64,000 nucleotides of DNA from Speluncibacter jeojiensis (GTDB lineage Bacteria; Actinomycetota; Actinomycetes; Mycobacteriales; Mycobacteriaceae). The stretch is taken from contig NZ_JAAIVF010000002.1 in assembly GCF_029589495.1 (NCBI RefSeq), positions 496,001 to 560,000 on the forward strand. The letters are read 5' to 3'. Below, piece after piece: positions 7,001-25,021 of this stretch. Each line of letters begins with the position of its first letter. The first letter of the stretch is position 1. A program made the position numbers and the translations under genes. Below the pieces are notes generated by a model. The model saw nothing but the letters and a program-made list of their open reading frames with translations, made no database searches and had not been told where the DNA came from.

Positions 7001-8040
7001 GAGCCGCTGTCCTGCACGGCATCGACGACCTGCGTGTCGAGGAGGTCCCCGAGCCGCGGGTGCAGCCCGGTCATGTGCTGATCGACGTGGCGTACAACGG
7101 GATCTGCGGCTCCGACCTCGGCATGGTCCACGCGTTCGGGATCTCCTCGCAGCCGCATCCGCTGACCGGCGTGTGCGGACCGCAGATCCTCGGTCACGAG
7201 TTCTCCGGCACGGTAAGCGAACTCGGCGCCGATGTGGACGGCATCGCCGTGGGTGACCGCGTCGTCGTGCAGCCGAACTACCACTGCGACACGTGCGTTC
7301 GCTGCCGCGGCGGCCTGGAGCACCTGTGCGAGGTCGCCGCCTTCCACGGCATCAACGCGCCGGGCGGCGGGCTGGCCGAGCGCACAGTGGTCCCCGCGGC
7401 GAACGTGCACGTGCTGCCCGACTCGGTGACGCTCGAACAGGCGGCGGTCGTCGAACCGCTCGCCGTCGCGCTGCACGCCGTCGAGCTGTCGGGCATCGCG
7501 CCGGGGCAGACGGCGCTGATCATCGGGGCCGGTCCCATCGGGATCGCCACCGCGCTGAACCTGCGTGCCGGCGGAGTCGACCGGATCCTGCTCAGCGAGC
7601 GGTCGTCGGAGCGCAGAAAGGTCGCCGCCGCACTCGGTTTCGACGCGATCGATCCGGAGTCGGTCGACCCGGTTGCGGCGGTGCGAGACTCGGGTGCCGG
7701 TGCCGGGGCCGACGCGGTGTTCGAGTGCGCGGGCGTGGCGGTCGCGGTGCATACGGCGCTCGGCGCGGTACGGGCCCGCGGAGCGGTCGTGCTGCTGGCG
7801 ACCTACAAGGAACCGGTGGCACTCGACACCTACGCGATGATGTTCGGCGAGATGAGGCTGATGTCGTCGCTCTGTTATTCGCGCGACGAGTTCCGTACTG
7901 TGATCGACCGGATGGCGGCAGGCGCCTATCCGCTCGACGGCTGGACGTCGAGCGTCCCCCTGGCGGACGTGGTCGACGGCGTGCAGGCGGCGTCCGATGG
8001 TCGCCGCATGAAGGTTCTCGTGGAGGTTTCCCATGGCTGA
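6997..8040 (+). CDS. Zinc-dependent alcohol dehydrogenase (butanediol/sorbitol dehydrogenase-like)
   Basis: A 347-residue medium-chain dehydrogenase. Catalytic zinc ligands are Cys37 (GICGSD) and His67-Glu68 (LGHEFSG). The four-cysteine structural zinc loop is complete (CDTCVRCRGGLEHLC). The Rossmann motif GAGPIG binds NAD(P). It overlaps the monooxygenase by 4 bp and the SDR by 8 bp, so all three are coupled. The likely role is oxidation of the secondary alcohol or diol made by its neighbours. Confidence 0.9.
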   Translation: MRAAVLHGIDDLRVEEVPEPRVQPGHVLIDVAYNGICGSDLGMVHAFGISSQPHPLTGVCGPQILGHEFSGTVSELGADVDGIAVGDRVVVQPNYHCDTCVRCRGGLEHLCEVAAFHGINAPGGGLAERTVVPAANVHVLPDSVTLEQAAVVEPLAVALHAVELSGIAPGQTALIIGAGPIGIATALNLRAGGVDRILLSERSSERRKVAAALGFDAIDPESVDPVAAVRDSGAGAGADAVFECAGVAVAVHTALGAVRARGAVVLLATYKEPVALDTYAMMFGEMRLMSSLCYSRDEFRTVIDRMAAGAYPLDGWTSSVPLADVVDGVQAASDGRRMKVLVEVSHG

Positions 8041-16765: not shown

Positions 16766-17713
16766 ATGAATGCGGGACGATTCGCGCCGAGCCCGTCCGG
16801 CGACCTGCACATCGGCAATCTGCGCACCGCGGTGCTGGCGTGGCTGTTCTCGCGGTCGACCGGCCGCGGGTTCCTGCTGCGCGTCGAGGATCTCGACCGG
16901 GCGCGCACCGGCGCCGAGGCCCGCCAGCTCGCCGACCTTGCGGCACTGGGCCTGGATTGGGACGGGCCGGTCGTGCACCAGTCGGCCCGGCTGGACCTCT
17001 ACGCCGAGGCGATCGACCGGCTGACCGCCGCGGGCCGCACCTACGAGTGCTTCTGCACCCGGCGCGAAATCCAGCAGGCCACCGAGGCCCCGCACGGGAT
17101 ACCCGGCGCCTATCCGGGAACCTGCCGGTCGCTGACCGCCGACGAGCGCGCCGAGCGGCAACGGTCCGGCCGGGCGCCTGCGCTGCGGCTGCGGTCCGAC
17201 GTCACCGAGTTCACCGTCCGCGACCTGTTGTGCGGCGACTTCACCGGTCCGGTCGACGACCTGGTGCTGCGCCGCGGCGACGGCGCGCCGGCCTACAACC
17301 TGGCGGTCGTCGTCGACGACGCGGCGCAGGGCGTCGACCAGGTGGTCCGCGGCGACGACCTGCTCGCGTCGTCGCCCCGCCAGGGCTACCTCGCCACGTT
17401 GCTCGGCCTGCCGGTGCCGACGTACGCGCACGTGCCGTTGGCGCTCAATGAGCAGGGGCAGCGCCTGGCCAAACGCGACGGCGCGGTCACGCTGGCCGAT
17501 CTCGCGGCGCTGGGGCATTCGCCGTCGGACGTACTCGCGACGATCGCGCGGTCGCTGGGGCTGGCCGGGCCGGGCGAGATGGTCATGCTCGCCGAGCTGC
17601 TCGCGCGGTTCGCCCCGGCGCGGCTGCCGCGCGAGCCGTGGGTGGTCCGGCCGGAACCGATCATGGCCGAACCACAAGGTATTTCGCCGGGCGAACAGTT
17701 GCGACATCGCTAG
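16766..17713 (+). CDS. gluQ: Glutamyl-queuosine tRNA(Asp) synthetase
   Basis: A 315-residue truncated glutamyl-tRNA synthetase paralog that attaches glutamate to the queuosine at position 34 of tRNA-Asp. It keeps the class I signatures: [17 protein letters not shown] (HIGH region) and RLAKRDGA (KMSKS equivalent). The zinc-region cysteines appear as CFC...YPGTC. It lacks the anticodon-binding C-terminal domain of GltX, as expected for GluQ-RS. A queuosine-precursor transporter and tgt lie within 6 kb, which supports a working queuosine pathway. Confidence 0.92.
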
Positions 17714-17814
17714 CACACGCTGGTCACAGGTCCTGCACAAACGGCCGATCCCCACGTAGGGTCGGGGCGGCAAAGTCCGCGTCACGCGGATCCGATTGAC
17801 ACAGAGGGGCCCGA

Positions 17815-18969
17815 ATGACAACCGGTGGAACTGACCCGAACGAGCACGGTCCGGGGGCGAACCCACCTGAGCGCGAGACCCCGCCGCCCGGCGGTGCCGC
17901 ACCGCGGCCCGGCAACTATCCGCCGCCGCCCGGTAACTACCCCCCGCCGGGCAATTACCCGCCGCCGCCCAATTACCCGCCGGCCCCGGGCAGCTACCCG
18001 CCCCCTCCTGGCCGCACGCCCCCGCCGCCCGGTAACTACCCGCCGCCCGGTGGCGCGCGGCCGCCGCAGCAGGGTGGCTATCCGCCGCCCGGCAGCATGC
18101 CGCCGCCCCCACCCGGCAATTACCCGCCTCCGGGGAGCATGCCGCCCCCGCCGCCCGGCAGCTACCCGCCTCCGGGTGGGCACATGCCTCCCCCGCCCGG
18201 TAATTACCCGCCTCCGGGGAGCATGCCCCCGCCGCCCGGTGGCTTCCCGCCGCCCGGATTCGGCGGTCCCGGCTACGGTGGCCCGGGCTACGGTGGCCCG
18301 GGCTACGGCCAGGGCATGCCGCCCGGCCGCCCGCAGCAGCTGAGCGTCGGCGACGCGATCTCGTACGGCTGGCGCAAGTTCAGCGGCAACGCCGGCGTGT
18401 GGATCGGCGTGATGGTGATCGCCGCGATCATCCAGGTGCTCATCGACTGGATCTTCGGGCTCAACCGCGGCGTATCCGGTTTCGGCGACTACTACAGCCC
18501 GATGCGGATCATCGGCACGCTGGTCGGTGCCGTGGTCGGCATCTTCATCCAGGCCGCGTTCGTGCACGGCGCGCTGCGCGAGACCGACGGCCACAAGCCG
18601 GACTTCGGGGCGTTCTTCCAGTTCCGCAACGTGGCCGCGATCGTCATCGCCAGCATCGTGGTCGGCATCGCCACCTGGATCGGCATGATGCTGTTCATCA
18701 TCCCGGGCCTGGTCGTGGTCTTCCTGACCTGGTGGACGATGCAGTTCGTGGTCGACCAGAACATGGATGCGATGACCGCGATCAAGTCGAGCTACCGGGT
18801 GATCTCGCAGAACGTCGGGACGCTGTTCCTGCTGGCGCTGGCGCTGGTCGGTATCAACATCATCGGTGCGCTGCTGTGCCTTGTCGGTCTGCTGGTGACC
18901 ATCCCGCTCACCATGATCGCCTCGACCTACGCGTACCGGGTGGCCTCCGGCCGACCGGTCGCCCCCTGA
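17815..18969 (+). CDS. Membrane protein with proline-rich repeat N-terminus
   Basis: A 384-residue protein. Residues 20-165 are low-complexity repeats of PPPGNYPPPG and PPPGSMPPPP type, ending in GGPGYGGPGYG. Residues about 175-384 hold four to five hydrophobic spans and resemble DUF975-like or glycerophosphodiester phosphodiesterase membrane domains (SVGDAISYGWRKFSGNAGVW). The repeat arm is probably cytoplasmic and may mediate scaffolding, which is inference. The repeats are encoded by near-identical GC-rich units and are likely to vary in number between strains. Confidence 0.7.
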   Translation: MTTGGTDPNEHGPGANPPERETPPPGGAAPRPGNYPPPPGNYPPPGNYPPPPNYPPAPGSYPPPPGRTPPPPGNYPPPGGARPPQQGGYPPPGSMPPPPPGNYPPPGSMPPPPPGSYPPPGGHMPPPPGNYPPPGSMPPPPGGFPPPGFGGPGYGGPGYGGPGYGQGMPPGRPQQLSVGDAISYGWRKFSGNAGVWIGVMVIAAIIQVLIDWIFGLNRGVSGFGDYYSPMRIIGTLVGAVVGIFIQAAFVHGALRETDGHKPDFGAFFQFRNVAAIVIASIVVGIATWIGMMLFIIPGLVVVFLTWWTMQFVVDQNMDAMTAIKSSYRVISQNVGTLFLLALALVGINIIGALLCLVGLLVTIPLTMIASTYAYRVASGRPVAP

Positions 18970-19061
18970 CCGACTCACCCTCGACGGCGCCGTCCGACCC
19001 CTGCGGTCGGGCGGCGCCGTCGTCTGTGCTGGGGCAATGCCTCACAGCACAAGATGCTTGG

Positions 19062-19784
19062 ATGGTCGGCGTGACAGCGACAGACCGGACCGACACCACC
19101 GCACAGCAGGCGACGTTCGCCCAGGTCGGAAAGAGTTTCTATCCGACCATCGTCGCGATCTTCGCGCCCCTGTTGCTGATCTCCAACATCTGCGCGACCA
19201 AGGGCATCGCATTCGGGCCCGTCGTCGGCAACTGGTCGATCCTCACCGATGGCGGCTTCTTCCTGTTCCCGCTCGCCTACGTGCTCGGCGACGTGCTCAG
19301 CGAGGTATACGGCTTCAAGGCCACCCGCCGCGCGATCTACATCGGATTCGGGTTGGCGGTGCTCGGCGGCTTCTCGTTCTGGCTGGCGATGGTGCTGCCG
19401 GCCGCCGACTTCTACCAGAACCAGTCGTCGTTCGAGACCGTCATCCGGGCGTTCCTGCAGGTCCTGCTGGCGAGCCTGGCCGGGTACATGGTCGGGCAGA
19501 CGCTGAACGCGCTGGTCGTGGTGCGGATCAAGGCCCGCACCAAGGAGAAGCACCTGTGGGCACGGCTGGTCGGGTCGACAGTGGTCGGCGAGTTCGCCGA
19601 CACACTGGTGTTCTGCGCCATCGCCGCGGGCGCGATCGGTATCTCGACCGCGAACGACTTCATCACCTACGTGGCGCTGGGCTTCGTCTACAAGTCGCTG
19701 CTCGAGGTGGCGTTGATGCCGATCACCTACCGGGTCATCGCGTACGTGAAGAAGCACGAGCCGACGTACCAGGCCGCCGGCTGA
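19062..19784 (+). CDS. Queuosine precursor transporter (YhhQ/QPTR family)
   Basis: A 240-residue membrane protein of the VUT/ECF-type YhhQ family with six or seven spans. Family landmarks are NICATKGIAFG near the N-terminus, LAYVLGDVLSEVYGFKATRRAIYIGF in the middle (quoted in parts: LSEVYGF is diagnostic) and VGEFADTLVFCAIA in the second half. These proteins import queuine or preQ bases for tRNA modification. ATG 19062 is used; GTG 19071 is an alternative. It lies between gluQ and tgt, fitting queuosine salvage. Confidence 0.88.
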   Translation: MVGVTATDRTDTTAQQATFAQVGKSFYPTIVAIFAPLLLISNICATKGIAFGPVVGNWSILTDGGFFLFPLAYVLGDVLSEVYGFKATRRAIYIGFGLAVLGGFSFWLAMVLPAADFYQNQSSFETVIRAFLQVLLASLAGYMVGQTLNALVVVRIKARTKEKHLWARLVGSTVVGEFADTLVFCAIAAGAIGISTANDFITYVALGFVYKSLLEVALMPITYRVIAYVKKHEPTYQAAG

Positions 19785-19797
19785 CGCCGGGACCCGC

Positions 19798-20250
19798 TCA
19801 CCGCGGCGATGCGGAGCACGATTTGGTGATCACGCCGGCCTGACTGTTCACCCGCAGCGCGGTGCGGATCTCGGAGAGGAACTCGCCCAGCGCGGTCGCC
19901 GAGGCGACCCGCACCAGCATCAGGTAGTCGGCCGTGCCGGCCAGCGAATAGCAGGTCTCCACCTCGGGATACTTGACCAGTTTTTCGGCCAGGTCGGCGT
20001 GGTCGGCCGGGTCGGTCGGCGTGACCGCAACGAACGCGGAGACCGCGAAGCCGAGCTTTTCCGGATTGATCACCGCGCGGTAGCCCTCGATGACGCCGGT
20101 GGCTTCGAGGCGGTGCAACCGCGCGTGCACCGCGGATGCCGAGAGCATGACCTTCGCCCCCAGGTCGCTGAGCTTGGCCCGCCCGTTGCTTAGCAACTCG
20201 TCGACCAACTGCTGGTCCACCTGATCCAGACCATCCCCCACATGTGTCAT
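19798..20250 (-). CDS. Lrp/AsnC-family transcriptional regulator
   Basis: A 150-residue regulator. The HTH lies at about residues 10-55 (LVDELLSNGRAKLSDLGAKV then SASAVHARLHRLEATGVIEGY). A ferredoxin-like RAM ligand domain follows (FVAVTPTDPADH... EVETCYSLAGTADYLMLV). Such proteins sense amino acids as oligomers. ATG 20250 begins at the HTH. It is convergent with the queuosine transporter (13 bp between stops) and divergent from the small-peptide operon across about 390 bp; regulation of either is untested. Confidence 0.88.
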   Translation of the reverse strand: MTHVGDGLDQVDQQLVDELLSNGRAKLSDLGAKVMLSASAVHARLHRLEATGVIEGYRAVINPEKLGFAVSAFVAVTPTDPADHADLAEKLVKYPEVETCYSLAGTADYLMLVRVASATALGEFLSEIRTALRVNSQAGVITKSCSASPR

Positions 20251-20639
20251 GTCGCAGGACGATAACGGGCTGAACCCACACAGCGCCGGTCGTTCGGCAG
20301 AAACACAGCAAAGTCTGTGGTGCGCACGGCATCTACAAGATCGGCTGAGACGCCTCAACCGGCGGATTTCGACTCCGCCCATGCCGGTCCGGAAACTTTT
20401 TCGGCCAGGCGCCGGTCTGCCGAAAGATCTCGTCGCCCGACGTCTCTGCCACTGAACAATCAAGCGAAGTATTTGAAAGTCGCCGAATTGTCTCGACGCG
20501 GCAACACCGGTTATTTATCGTTCTGCGCATCGCCAGGTGGATCACCTGAGTCGACACGCAATTCGGGTGCGCAAACCGGCCACCACCGAACCGCGCAAGG
20601 CAAGTCACAAGACAGCAATACTCTTCACGAGGGGTACGA
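20251..20639. other. 389-bp lower-GC promoter region upstream of the small-peptide operon
   Basis: No convincing coding sequence. The right half (20460-20640) is clearly richer in A and T than the surroundings, with stretches such as GTATTTGAAAG and GGTTATTTATCG that could hold promoter elements. A long untranslated leader for the operon is possible. I see no riboswitch consensus. Confidence 0.4.
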
Positions 20640-21122
20640 ATGCTCCACAGCAGAGCTAGAAGAATCGGCATCGGCGCCATAGCCGTGGCCGGCGCAGCCA
20701 CGCTGACGCTGGCCACGAATGCTGCCGCTGCAACAGCAGTCGAGGGGGTTCCGACTGCCAGTTATCAACTATGCGGAACCGTCTATTCGGGTACCTGGAC
20801 GGAAAACTCCGCTCCGCCCGCTACCTCGCAGGGAATTCCCGGCGTCACTGTGACCGGAACGCTCTACAACAGCGACGGCACCGCGAGTGGGTGGACAGGC
20901 AATGCCACCACGGGTTCGGGAGGCGAGTACTGCGTCCAGGGCACGTCTGCTATGGCAACAACGGTTACCACCGGGGGTTACGTCGTTCTCACTGCAGCTT
21001 CGCCATCTACTCCGAGTCCCTGGGCGTCCGGCGGGAACACCCACATCAACTCGAGCGTGTTCGCCGATCACGGCTATGGCTTCCCCCCGCTGTCCGCGTA
21101 CCACTTCAACTTCGTACAGTGA
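20640..21122 (+). CDS. Small secreted protein, first gene of the small-peptide operon
   Basis: A 160-residue exported protein of unknown function. Residues 1-31 are a Sec signal peptide (RARRIG, a hydrophobic Ala/Leu/Thr core, cleavage near NAAAATA). The mature part is rich in Thr, Ser and Gly. It has two Cys (YQLCGTVYSG and GEYCVQG) that could pair, and a beta-rich pattern like carboxypeptidase-regulatory folds (GIPGVTVTGTLYNSDGTASG). The local GC is lower than in neighbours. The stop is only 9 bp before the first of four tiny ORFs, so it heads that operon. Confidence 0.7.
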   Translation: MLHSRARRIGIGAIAVAGAATLTLATNAAAATAVEGVPTASYQLCGTVYSGTWTENSAPPATSQGIPGVTVTGTLYNSDGTASGWTGNATTGSGGEYCVQGTSAMATTVTTGGYVVLTAASPSTPSPWASGGNTHINSSVFADHGYGFPPLSAYHFNFVQ

Positions 21123-21131
21123 GGTGACCCG

Positions 21132-21251
21132 ATGCTTTTCGATTTCGCGCAAGCATTGTCGCAACTGGTCAACGGCATCGCAGGCCCATTGGGCGGCTCT
21201 GTCAGCGGGCTGAACACACTCTCTTCAAAAGACTATTCAAGCGGGGCATGA
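21132..21251 (+). CDS. Tiny peptide gene 1 (39 aa)
   Basis: It starts MLFDFAQALSQLVNGIAG and ends KDYSSGA. There is no signal peptide. Hydrophobic and polar residues alternate in a pattern expected for an amphipathic helix, followed by a Gly/Ser-rich end. GAGGTGA sits 4 bases before the ATG and overlaps the stop of the secreted-protein gene. Size, composition and tandem arrangement recall PorA/PorH mycomembrane peptides of corynebacteria, but no sequence identity is claimed. Confidence 0.6.
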   Translation: MLFDFAQALSQLVNGIAGPLGGSVSGLNTLSSKDYSSGA

Positions 21252-21252
21252 G

Positions 21253-21384
21253 ATGAACATTCAGGGGTCAGTCGCAGAATCAACGAGCTCGCTTGGGCAG
21301 ACGGTAACGCAGATGCTTCCCATGCTGTTCCAGATGATGTTCCTCCAACCGCTCAATCTTTCCATAGGCTTCCAGGCCCACTAA
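21253..21384 (+). CDS. Tiny peptide gene 2 (43 aa)
   Basis: It starts MNIQGSVAESTSSLGQ, continues with a Met/Leu/Phe-rich hydrophobic stretch (MLPMLFQMMFLQPLNL) and ends GFQAH. It begins 1 base after the stop of peptide gene 1, so its translation is probably coupled; its own ribosome site is weak (GCGGGG). The hydrophobic stretch could insert in a membrane. No homolog recognised. Confidence 0.58.
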   Translation: MNIQGSVAESTSSLGQTVTQMLPMLFQMMFLQPLNLSIGFQAH

Positions 21385-21396
21385 GAAAGGAGCCTC

Positions 21397-21504
21397 ATGT
21401 CGTCACTCCAAATGCTTTCGGTGGACCTACTCGGCGTGTTCGGTAAGTTCTGGTTCACGGGCGGCAAAGAGCCCGTGGGCACATTCCTGCACGCGCTTTC
21501 TTAA
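21397..21504 (+). CDS. Tiny peptide gene 3 (35 aa)
   Basis: It starts MSSLQMLSVDLLGVFGKF and ends GTFLHALS. A strong AGAAAGGAG lies 5 bases before the ATG, the best evidence that it is translated. It has an amphipathic N-terminal half and no signal peptide. It is 12 bp from peptide gene 2 and 13 bp from peptide gene 4. Confidence 0.62.
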   Translation: MSSLQMLSVDLLGVFGKFWFTGGKEPVGTFLHALS

Positions 21505-21517
21505 AAGGAGTTGAAGA

Positions 21518-21649
21518 ATGCTGTCCAAGTTCTTAGACGGATCAGTTAGTATGGGCATGGGCGATTTCGCCGTTGCCGTCCTCGGGTTGTACACCGCCTC
21601 CTCCCAAGGCGCAGGCTGGGGCAGTTTGAATTCGTTGACCGGAGGCTGA
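21518..21649 (+). CDS. Tiny peptide gene 4 (43 aa)
   Basis: It starts MLSKFLDGSVSMGMGDF and ends with a Gly/Ser-rich tail (GWGSLNSLTGG). AAAAGGAG lies 8 bases upstream. The centre AVAVLGLYTA is hydrophobic. It is the last gene before a 14-bp hairpin terminator that begins 17 bases downstream. The length equals that of peptide 2 and of the separate peptide gene at 42665-42796. Confidence 0.62.
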   Translation: MLSKFLDGSVSMGMGDFAVAVLGLYTASSQGAGWGSLNSLTGG

Positions 21650-21665
21650 TCCCGAGCCACTCACA

Positions 21666-22970
<1,305 letters not shown>

Positions 22971-23816: not shown

Positions 23817-24929
23817 TCACGCCGCGACCGCTTCGTGGCGTCCGCCGTTGCGGTCCCGCTTGAGGTAGACGACCAGCCCGGTCAGCGCCGCCGCCGCGGC
23901 CAGCCACAGGCCGACGATCAGCAGTCCGTGTCCGACGCCCGCTCCGCCGAAGTAGACGACCGAGCGCATCGCCTGCACCACACCGGAACCGATCCAGAAA
24001 TTGTGCAGCCACTCCCAGAACGGCGGCATGAAGCCGGTCGGGATCGCGCCGCCGGCGCTCGGGAAGTTCAGGAAGATCGCGAACGTCATCACCAGGAAGA
24101 TCGCCGCCTGCCCGAGCACCTTGTTGCACAGCATCGCGACCAACCCGACCGCGAACGTGTAGACCATGCCGATCAGCACCATCGCCGTCAGTCCCGCTGC
24201 GGTGGCGCCGTAGCTGCCGACGAAGATCGAGGAGATGCCGAACGCGATCAGCGTGGCGAGCACCGACATCACGCCGAGCACGGTGACCTGGTGCCGCACC
24301 CGCAGCTTCGGTGCGGCCTGGGAGACCACGGTGACGGTCAGGTAGCCGCCAATGGTGCAGACCACCATGAAGTAGAACAGTCCCATACCGGTGCCGTCAC
24401 CGCCTCCGAGCGGGGCGACGTCGTGCACCACCAGTTGGGTGCCGGTAGCCGACGCCAGTTGCTGCCCGACCTTCTCGACCGTCTGCGTCACGGTCATCCC
24501 CGCGCCCGAGGCGACATGCGCAGTGACGGTCGGGCCGAGCTCGATCGCCCCGGCGATCTTCTGGTACTGGAGCTGGTCGAGCGTGGCGGACAGGTCGGTC
24601 GAGGTGCTGACCGCGAACGCGCCGTCGGAGTGCTGACTCAGCTGGTCGGCGACCATCGAGGTCTGCGCGGACGGGCCGACCAGCGCGAGCTTGACGTCAT
24701 GCGGGGTCGGGTGGTGGAACGCGCTGATGTAGCAGAGCGCGAACATGACCACGAAGAAGATCGGGAACACCATCGCCTTGGCGATGCCTCCCCACGGCGG
24801 CGCGCTCGGCGTGTCTGCCGCCGGGGCGGGGCCGGGGCGCTCGTGTTCGAGCGTGACCGCCGGGGCGACCGCGGCGACGTCGGCCTCGAACGCCTCCTCG
24901 AATTCCTCCATGCCGTGATGCTGAGTCAT
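23817..24929 (-). CDS. ABC-2/YhgE-like membrane protein under TetR control
   Basis: A 370-residue membrane protein. After a 60-residue cytoplasmic N-terminus comes one span (about 65-88), a roughly 110-residue external domain, then five further spans to the C-terminus. The layout matches the DUF3533/YhgE-Pip or ABC-2 permease group. No ATPase gene adjoins it. ATG 24929 has GGTGGA upstream. Its promoter contains three identical operator palindromes shared with the divergent tetR gene, so it is probably repressed by that regulator and has an export or stress role. Confidence 0.72.
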   Translation of the reverse strand: MTQHHGMEEFEEAFEADVAAVAPAVTLEHERPGPAPAADTPSAPPWGGIAKAMVFPIFFVVMFALCYISAFHHPTPHDVKLALVGPSAQTSMVADQLSQHSDGAFAVSTSTDLSATLDQLQYQKIAGAIELGPTVTAHVASGAGMTVTQTVEKVGQQLASATGTQLVVHDVAPLGGGDGTGMGLFYFMVVCTIGGYLTVTVVSQAAPKLRVRHQVTVLGVMSVLATLIAFGISSIFVGSYGATAAGLTAMVLIGMVYTFAVGLVAMLCNKVLGQAAIFLVMTFAIFLNFPSAGGAIPTGFMPPFWEWLHNFWIGSGVVQAMRSVVYFGGAGVGHGLLIVGLWLAAAAALTGLVVYLKRDRNGGRHEAVAA

Positions 24930-24960
24930 CGGATCCACCTTCACTGAAGTCACTGCGTGC

Positions 24961-25021
24961 GTCAACAACGTTGACAAAGGGCAGTCAACACCGTTGACGC
25001 CTGGTTGTCAACAGTGTTGAC
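24961..25021. promoter_or_regulatory. Triple TetR operator, GTCAAC-N3-GTTGAC
   Basis: Three copies of GTCAACNNNGTTGAC lie at 24961-24975, 24984-24998 and 25007-25021, with centre triplets AAC, ACC and AGT and starts exactly 23 bp apart. They fill the divergent promoter between the membrane-protein gene and tetR. Each right arm reads GTTGAC and could also supply a -35 element. The regular spacing suggests cooperative binding of several TetR dimers. Confidence 0.8.

Follow-up and report, generated by a model that had tools for sequence, protein, structure and literature searches.

Does a row of four very short open reading frames behind the gene of a secreted protein constitute a genuine operon and, if so, could it encode a counterpart of the PorA/PorH channel peptides outside Corynebacterium, as was originally predicted? 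In the window, by which we mean the whole stretch of 64,000 nucleotides under analysis, an ORF for a protein of 160 aa (S, 20640-21122) is followed on the same plus strand by ORFs for peptides of 39 (P1, 21132-21251), 43 (P2, 21253-21384), 35 (P3, 21397-21504) and 43 aa (P4, 21518-21649), all of them open and separated by the expected gaps of 9, 1, 12 and 13 nt. Judged from their sequences S is Sec-secreted and the peptides are signal-less, both in line with the original prediction. At least three good ribosome sites had been foreseen, and those of P1, P3 and P4 are indeed clear whereas that of P2 is weak; likewise, the reported drop in GC content is found (0.57-0.61 in the cassette as compared to 0.65-0.77 in neighbouring genes). 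The proposed terminator is borne out in part, as a strong inverted repeat lies 3' of P4 between the convergent cassette and tgt (21665-21708; arms of 18 nt at 21665-21682 and 21691-21708, 94% complementary; the stretch folds at -40 kcal/mol, z -6.4), but this possible terminator has no real T-run and is not listed by the terminator scan. A promoter scan of the cassette came out empty and Rfam gave no match at gathering score. The flanking genes, both on the opposite strand, encode an Lrp/AsnC regulator and TGT, and in the window no immunity or exporter gene adjoins the cassette, just as had been stated; a sub-threshold ABC2-like match lies two genes beyond it (23817-24977).

A chain of ORFs like this one is by itself not beyond chance. 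In a Markov simulation 9 of 30 windows contained a chain of at least four ribosome-site-led ORFs of 25-70 codons, and the same scan missed the window's own chain, probably because the ribosome site of P2 is weak. What makes this chain more than chance is its conservation elsewhere: hidden Markov models recovered the complete set P1-P2-P3-P4, in fixed order and on one strand, in 15 loci, namely the window, 12 other genomes and two plasmids. The models were seeded from ten of these loci, the remaining five being L083 (a near-duplicate of L094), L085, L086 and the plasmids L099 and L100, and the weakest assignment is that of P3 in L082 (E 0.001). All 60 peptide frames are open and 31-44 aa long, 52 start with ATG, and the gaps between them range from -1 to 39 nt. 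Since sequence, order, spacing and starts are all conserved at 14 further loci, chance ORFs are ruled out, and a lack of conserved starts, ribosome sites and peptide sequence, which had been named as evidence against the operon, is excluded by the loci of the relatives. Most relatives of P2 begin three residues later, so that its true start may differ. Pooled dN/dS values are 0.22-0.38 in the six informative of seven chosen locus pairs, a rough range because dS exceeds 1 in five pairs. P1-P4 are conserved genes whose order is kept and which are under purifying selection.

The four families have distinct signatures, approximately GGSLxGLNTMSxxxYSS in P1, GSxxxxTxSLGQTVxQMLPxLFxxLxxxPLxLSxG in P2, a terminal FLxxLS in P3 and GLxTASxxGxGWxSL in P4. 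Besides the first Met, residues L27, N28 and S31 of P1, S6, T11, S13, L14, G15, P23 and G39 of P2, D10, F30, L31, L34 and the C-terminal S35 of P3, and G23, A27, S28, G31 and G33 of P4 are invariant in 15 rows, and each family holds an invariant Ser. Cys is absent from all 60 peptides and the mean net charge of the families is -1.1 to -1.7. The peptides had been described as Leu/Gly/Ser-rich, which does not hold for P2 (Leu, Ser, Gln, Thr and Met, not Gly, over 15 loci), and the amphipathic stretches noted at the same time are present but modest (mean z 0.8-2.1 against shuffles, 15 loci). The Kyte-Doolittle maximum over 19 residues reaches a transmembrane-grade value of at least 1.6 in 8 of the 60 peptides; by the same measure C. 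glutamicum PorH and PorA score 1.08 and 1.26. For P4 a helix at residues 2-30 and a further short helix are predicted with low confidence (pLDDT 69). Apart from a weak P1-P4 score of 33% in hhalign the families are mutually dissimilar. None of the five window proteins matched a Pfam model at E<=1, which covers ESX/WXG100 and PE/PPE for the peptides (35-43 aa as opposed to about 100 or more) and MspA (PF09203) for S. Nor did any NCBIfam model score above its cut-off for the window proteins or the 60 peptides, sub-cut-off scores being those of a polyprenyltransferase model for the window P3 (E 0.11) and of TatB_1 for S (E 0.64). P1-P4 and S thus apparently represent new protein families, and such a cassette is not described in the titles and abstract openings of the mostly non-subscription literature on porins, the mycomembrane, small proteins and prophages. 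In Tomitella, P4 (L081, reverse complement, 7506-7632) switches to a different frame, in which the usual Trp/Ser-rich end is encoded; this frameshift may be natural or due to assembly.

How widespread is the cassette? A seven-row profile of P2 matched 21 of 401 genomes of the family at E<=0.05, 13 of them at E<=2.4e-11, and a P4 profile matched 38 at E<=0.05, with the same 13 at E<=2.1e-9; the matches in the other eight (E>=0.007) and 25 genomes (E>=0.0048), respectively, were set aside as false. This leaves 13 carriers of P1-P4 among the 401 genomes, spread over five genera (g1, g10, g14, g22 and g24). Seven of them had supplied profile rows, while G062, G100, G106, G120, G131 and G206 had not; G106 and G268 are identical at 1770 of 1773 bases of the cassette locus. 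Among 239 genomes of the order, the own family included, P2 was found in its own genome only, one further poor match (E 0.005) lying inside a 396-codon frame. P1-P4 have so far been seen in one bacterial family only, whose members are mycolic-acid bacteria. Two plasmids carry the cassette as well, p1-WH99 of Prescottella equi (L099) and RQCS_2 of Rhodococcus qingshengii (L100), both Rhodococcus-type megaplasmids. The incomplete tables of PLSDB list one of the four peptides for each of these plasmids, and in relatives of Rhodococcus the cassette is mostly unannotated. The annotation of the P. equi plasmid shows a C39 family peptidase at 2.3 kb upstream of S, and also a sigma-70 family factor upstream of that cassette (L099 1976-3974).

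The distribution of S closely matches that of the peptides. A search of 61 genomes with S gave three positives, the own genome included; in one of these, G013, several tiny ORFs stand in line downstream of its S. With a two-row profile 19 of the 401 family genomes matched at E<=0.01, and the same four peptides lay downstream at several loci; with an 18-row profile 29 matched at E<=0.001, 18 of them at E<1e-19. The matches in the other 11 genomes (E 2e-5 to 1e-3) were set aside as false, as was L004, judged by its surroundings. Of the 13 peptide-carrying genomes 12 have S in the vicinity of the cassette, and all 12 are among the 18 with a strong S match. The hypergeometric probability of this co-occurrence (8e-18, 401 family genomes) overstates the link because the peptides were first found beside S; S is present in five of the six genomes that gave no rows to the peptide profiles. 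G131 has the peptides but no S within the 14 kb read, the S frame of G062 is broken by stops, that of G098 is open but without a start, and G282 has S and no evident cassette. Where S comes first it lies 9 to 687 nt upstream of P1 (ten measured loci); in G120 it is located downstream of the cassette instead.

The model of S is a beta-sandwich (pLDDT 83.5, pTM 0.74), and the protein has two invariant cysteines, C45 and C98. In its mature part the ten-residue blocks from 31 to 160 have mean pLDDT values of 85-97 except for 121-130 (53). Among solved structures its fold neighbours comprise transthyretin, SdrD, pilin domains of SpaD/SpaA and allergens of the Ole e 1-like type, with Z <=8.8 and a best Foldseek E of 1.5e-3. 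Z values below about 8-9 can mean no more than a common beta-sandwich, and a CnaB/transthyretin-like domain is a possible assignment. A sorting motif is not seen at the C-terminus. Some S genes are irregular. That of Tomitella cavernea (L003 1468-1510) lacks ATG, GTG or TTG before most of the signal peptide, and a CTG start or a sequence error is possible; G188 has a second, partial S-like frame (L091 1421-1879, minus strand) that looks decayed, about 5 kb from the intact S; and on the R. qingshengii plasmid there is an S gene on either side of the cassette, the two being different (L100 5282-5746 and 6830-7261).

There are also more distant versions of the cassette. G153 contains two further four-peptide sets (30-36 aa) beside S homologues (L089, L090), and each of the two-row families built from them (C1-C4) scores best with the P family of equal position (hhalign probabilities of 63% for P1-C1, 88% for P2-C2, 25% for P3-C3 and 1.9% for P4-C4). 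Since reversed controls reach 21%, only P1-C1 and P2-C2 stand clear alone, and the agreement position by position is a better argument for the putative kinship than the single scores. Sets of five peptides, the extra one being 62-65 aa long, are present in G013, G064, G186 and G216; their first peptide scores 25% against P1 (hhalign), near the largest control, and the remaining peptides score lower.

The original observation of a row of genuine small genes has thus been confirmed, but it missed the variable and mobile nature of the cassette and its conserved link to S. In four of six same-site comparisons, which represent three sites, the cassette is unrelated, diverged or deleted between flanks of 86-97% DNA identity. 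The Tomitella genomes G100 and G064 carry a four-peptide and a five-peptide cassette, respectively, between flanks that are 87-95% identical, and the flanks of G100 are 90-97% identical to those of the five-peptide genome G013. In G153 and G206 the flanks share 91-94% but the peptides only 32-53% (P1 19/36, P2 16/39, P3 12/33, P4 12/37) and S 52/138 positions. Finally, where G098 has the full P1-P4, G131 retains only the later part of P4 between sides of 92% and 95% identity; G131 has another cassette elsewhere (L086), and G188 a lone second P4. By contrast, at two sites, in G186/G216 (L095/L096, five-peptide) and in G106/G268 (L083/L094), the cassette is as conserved as its flanks. At some sites, not all, the cassette is therefore swapped, diverging or decaying faster than its surroundings.

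Mobility is evident from prophage-related sequences. A scan of IMG/VR with the P2 alignment gave nine pattern matches, and the cassette was confirmed in four contigs of 42-47 kb, always within 2.5 kb of an end; three of these contigs are about 97% identical there. In L155 an endolysin gene resembling that of several Rhodococcus and Gordonia phages is followed, as far as position 7932, by segments akin to the tail genes of Rhodococcus phage REQ2 and their neighbours (the regions of gp20-21 and gp27-31). Next come S, P1-P4, an Lsr2 homologue and, at the contig end, a gene which we read as that of a tyrosine recombinase; its DNA matches that of a 'site-specific integrase' from a plasmid. L156 shares S, P2-P4, Lsr2 and the integrase with L155, and neither L154 nor L157 extends beyond P3. 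The cassette of G062 (L079) occupies, together with the decayed S, lsr2 and an integrase remnant, about 3.9 kb between perfect 23-bp repeats, one of which is the 3' end of tRNA-Lys. L157 shows the same integrase (97%), then the 3' half of tRNA-Lys with the 23-bp core and then the cassette, an order which suggests that there the cassette may lie just outside the prophage. Six of the 17 complete loci (L079, L082, L084, L100, L155 and L156) have an Lsr2 homologue no more than 1.6 kb from P4; as L079, L155 and L156 are close relatives, they do not count as six separate cases. In the passages available from PMC8612146, phage-encoded Lsr2 proteins are postulated to maintain lysogeny; the cassette shares with such systems an lsr2 gene, here near P4, and differs in that this gene stands beside an envelope-type cassette. 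The postulated role would fit a silenced low-GC cargo. Two S proteins and one P2 had no match in 50,697 records of isolated phages, and relatives of the L155 integrase were not found in stretches of at least 11 kb from 12 of the 13 carrier genomes. By tblastn neither this integrase nor two Lsr2 proteins have a relative in the 64-kb window itself, and convincing flanking repeats are absent (19600-22000), which leaves a recent insertion there unproven; two tRNA-Ser genes lie 5-6 kb from the cassette. Taken together, the cassette is linked to S, is replaced, diverged or deleted at some sites, and occurs on plasmids and prophage-related elements.

Are the peptides then analogues of PorA and PorH outside Corynebacterium? 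The general build agrees with this idea, the peptides being signal-less, tandem, Cys-free, acidic and Ser-containing, but a relation in sequence is not supported. With PorA/PorH (NF033925, NF033937, NF033938) and PorACj (NF038022) the cassette shares signal-less products of about 34-62 aa, tandem genes and mycolic-acid hosts, and PorA and PorH of C. glutamicum are Cys-free and acidic, like P1-P4. Nevertheless, none of the five window proteins matches a Por model of NCBIfam at E<=1, only one of the 60 peptides does so at E<=0.1 (P4 of L093, 16 bits for PorACj with a cut-off of 28), and in hhalign the P families score no better against PorA/PorH than reversed controls; with these models and alignments homology was not detected. 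Among 22 genomes the PorH model matched two, both of genus g3, and missed all 19 that have S or the cassette. Of 29 genomes the PorACj model matched 10 at E<=1, two of them, again both of g3, over the cut-off, and P4 of G206 reached 15 bits, below it. The systems differ also in that PorA/PorH comprise one or two peptides as opposed to four, single-peptide channels of Corynebacterium being described as well in the parts of PMC3792995 and PMC5944148 drawn on here. According to the same passages the Por locus lies between groEL2 and ppk2, whereas the cassette occupies varied sites and in the window adjoins Lrp/AsnC and TGT. In the literature consulted no partner of the S type is mentioned.

What is reported for the corynebacterial proteins nevertheless offers a model. 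In the available passages of PMC12632848, PorA, PorH and ProtX of C. glutamicum are devoid of signal sequences, and how they cross the plasma membrane is described as unclear; display of PorH is independent of the type VII genes tested and requires PorA, Cmt1 and mycoloylation of PorA or PorH. O-mycoloylation is found mostly at Ser in flexible stretches with a slight enrichment of Gly, Ala and Ser (PMC11066868, in part), a setting that P1 and P4 resemble; the invariant Ser in each of P1-P4 would be compatible with such a modification. The target Ser of PorA has been modelled between two helices (excerpt of PMC11927696). Phage Cog uses ProtX for adsorption and PorA afterwards (PMC9671496, in excerpt). 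As described in parts of PMC9671496 and PMC12632848, ProtX is signal-less, mycoloylated, located at the surface and serves the adsorption of Cog; unlike the four peptides it is a single protein, and the likeness is drawn from these descriptions. MspA porins (PF09203) are outer-membrane channels of related hosts too but are Sec-exported beta-barrels, and channels of this type are reported in Rhodococcus (PMC9233653, as far as available). An MspA porin is encoded in 17 of the 19 genomes with S or cassette, which makes a role of P1-P4 as main porin unneeded and speaks for an accessory surface system rather than the sole porin. The MspA family looks strongly expanded in two genomes (19 matches in G087, 10 in G104), some of the matches being fragments of one frame.

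We believe, with a probability of roughly 55%, that S and P1-P4 work together as a unit of the mycolic-acid outer membrane which functions like PorA/PorH/ProtX and is exchanged under pressure from phages. The peptides would leave the cytoplasm without signal sequences, as PorA, PorH and ProtX do in Corynebacterium glutamicum, some of them may be O-mycoloylated at the invariant serines, and together they could build a hetero-oligomeric helical assembly, a pore or a coat, in the mycomembrane, with the Sec-exported S as its periplasmic or surface partner. But why would such cassettes be traded and diversified? Phage pressure is a plausible cause because peptides of this kind serve phage infection in C. 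glutamicum, and temperate phages may carry some cassettes as lysogenic-conversion cargo with Lsr2 as the likely silencer. It is from the fit in size, composition, host range and variability that we infer a phage-driven, exchangeable assembly; the surface location, export, lipidation, assembly and pore formation of P1-P4 are likewise drawn from this analogy. Against it count the absence of homology to PorA/PorH, the presence of MspA, the small number of carriers (13/401), the two conserved site pairs, the low pLDDT of the P4 model (69) and the missing or decayed S in three carriers. More speculatively, and with less confidence than the above, the cassette might be a mobile lysogenic-conversion module that re-coats the mycomembrane, with temperate phages and plasmids of mycolic-acid bacteria as carriers of interchangeable four-peptide sets and S perhaps being the missing periplasmic carrier, so that swaps would change phage receptors and permeability.

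The association with mobile elements can also be read differently. P1-P4 could be cargo of phages or other mobile elements that acts in the inner membrane or the cytoplasm, for instance in superinfection exclusion or as small membrane-active toxins, with S as decoy or passenger. The position of the cassette beside lsr2 and integrase, at prophage ends and on plasmids and its accessory distribution would suit such a role, which we nevertheless consider rather unlikely, for relatives of the L155-type integrase are missing from the stretches of 12 of the 13 genomes, a transmembrane-grade hydrophobic window is restricted to 8 of the 60 peptides, and four co-conserved families with a Sec-secreted partner would seem to exceed the usual needs of an exclusion system. 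Somewhat less probable still is a structural or adhesive surface layer without a pore, of which S would be the main part and P1-P4 the mycomembrane anchor. Pilins and surface adhesins do contain CnaB/transthyretin-like folds, the fold neighbours of S include the SpaD/SpaA pilins and SdrD, and S and the peptides are conserved together; however, Z values of up to 8.8 may reflect only the common beta-sandwich, the C-terminus of S shows no sorting motif, and G131 has the peptides without S in the stretch read.

Finally, the four leaderless peptides of one operon recall aureocin A70 and PSM-alpha, and the variability and mobility of the cassette, as well as the C39 family peptidase of the P. equi plasmid, whose domain occurs in bacteriocin exporters too, would be in keeping with a secreted multi-peptide antagonist, either a leaderless bacteriocin or phenol-soluble-modulin-like. 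Aureocin A70 and PSM-alpha likewise comprise four short leaderless peptides per operon, yet these are cationic or toxin-like and have dedicated exporters, and leaderless multi-peptide bacteriocins are a cationic class. The cassette peptides are mildly acidic, the mean net charge of each family being below zero. For the most part they bear no relation to each other (the weak P1-P4 score aside), and they are accompanied by a secreted partner; moreover, the direct neighbours of the window cassette are Lrp and TGT, and the incomplete PLSDB tables list no exporter next to the plasmid copies. Hence we regard an antagonist as improbable.

If the reading as a phage-driven, exchangeable mycomembrane unit is correct, these bacteria would possess an outer-membrane system that is modular and transferable and for which no relation in sequence to known porins was detected. 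The surface locus would be a variable one, and both it and the phage cargo can escape gene callers. As the cassette comprises four peptides and a Sec-secreted protein in about 1 kb and could be moved into C. glutamicum as a single piece of DNA, the question of signal-less export would become directly testable.

Some features of the surroundings are worth recording. G098 (g10, L080 1-11379) and G131 (g22, L087 341-10418), which are labelled as belonging to different genera, share a block of roughly 11 kb with genes of degradation type (FAD/2Fe-2S reductase, AMP-ligase, TetR, LysR and dehydrogenases) at 86-95% identity, possibly as a result of horizontal transfer. In the window, the cassette sits amid probable queuosine genes (16766-22970), which comprise tgt (21699-22970), a Glu/Gln-tRNA-synthetase-like protein (16766-17713) that we take to be of the gluQ-RS type and a frame at about 19037-19784 which is presumably YhhQ-like and has no Pfam match. 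A homologue of the Lrp/AsnC regulator of the window, 66% identical to it, is encoded near S of G087 (L098 4654-5022).
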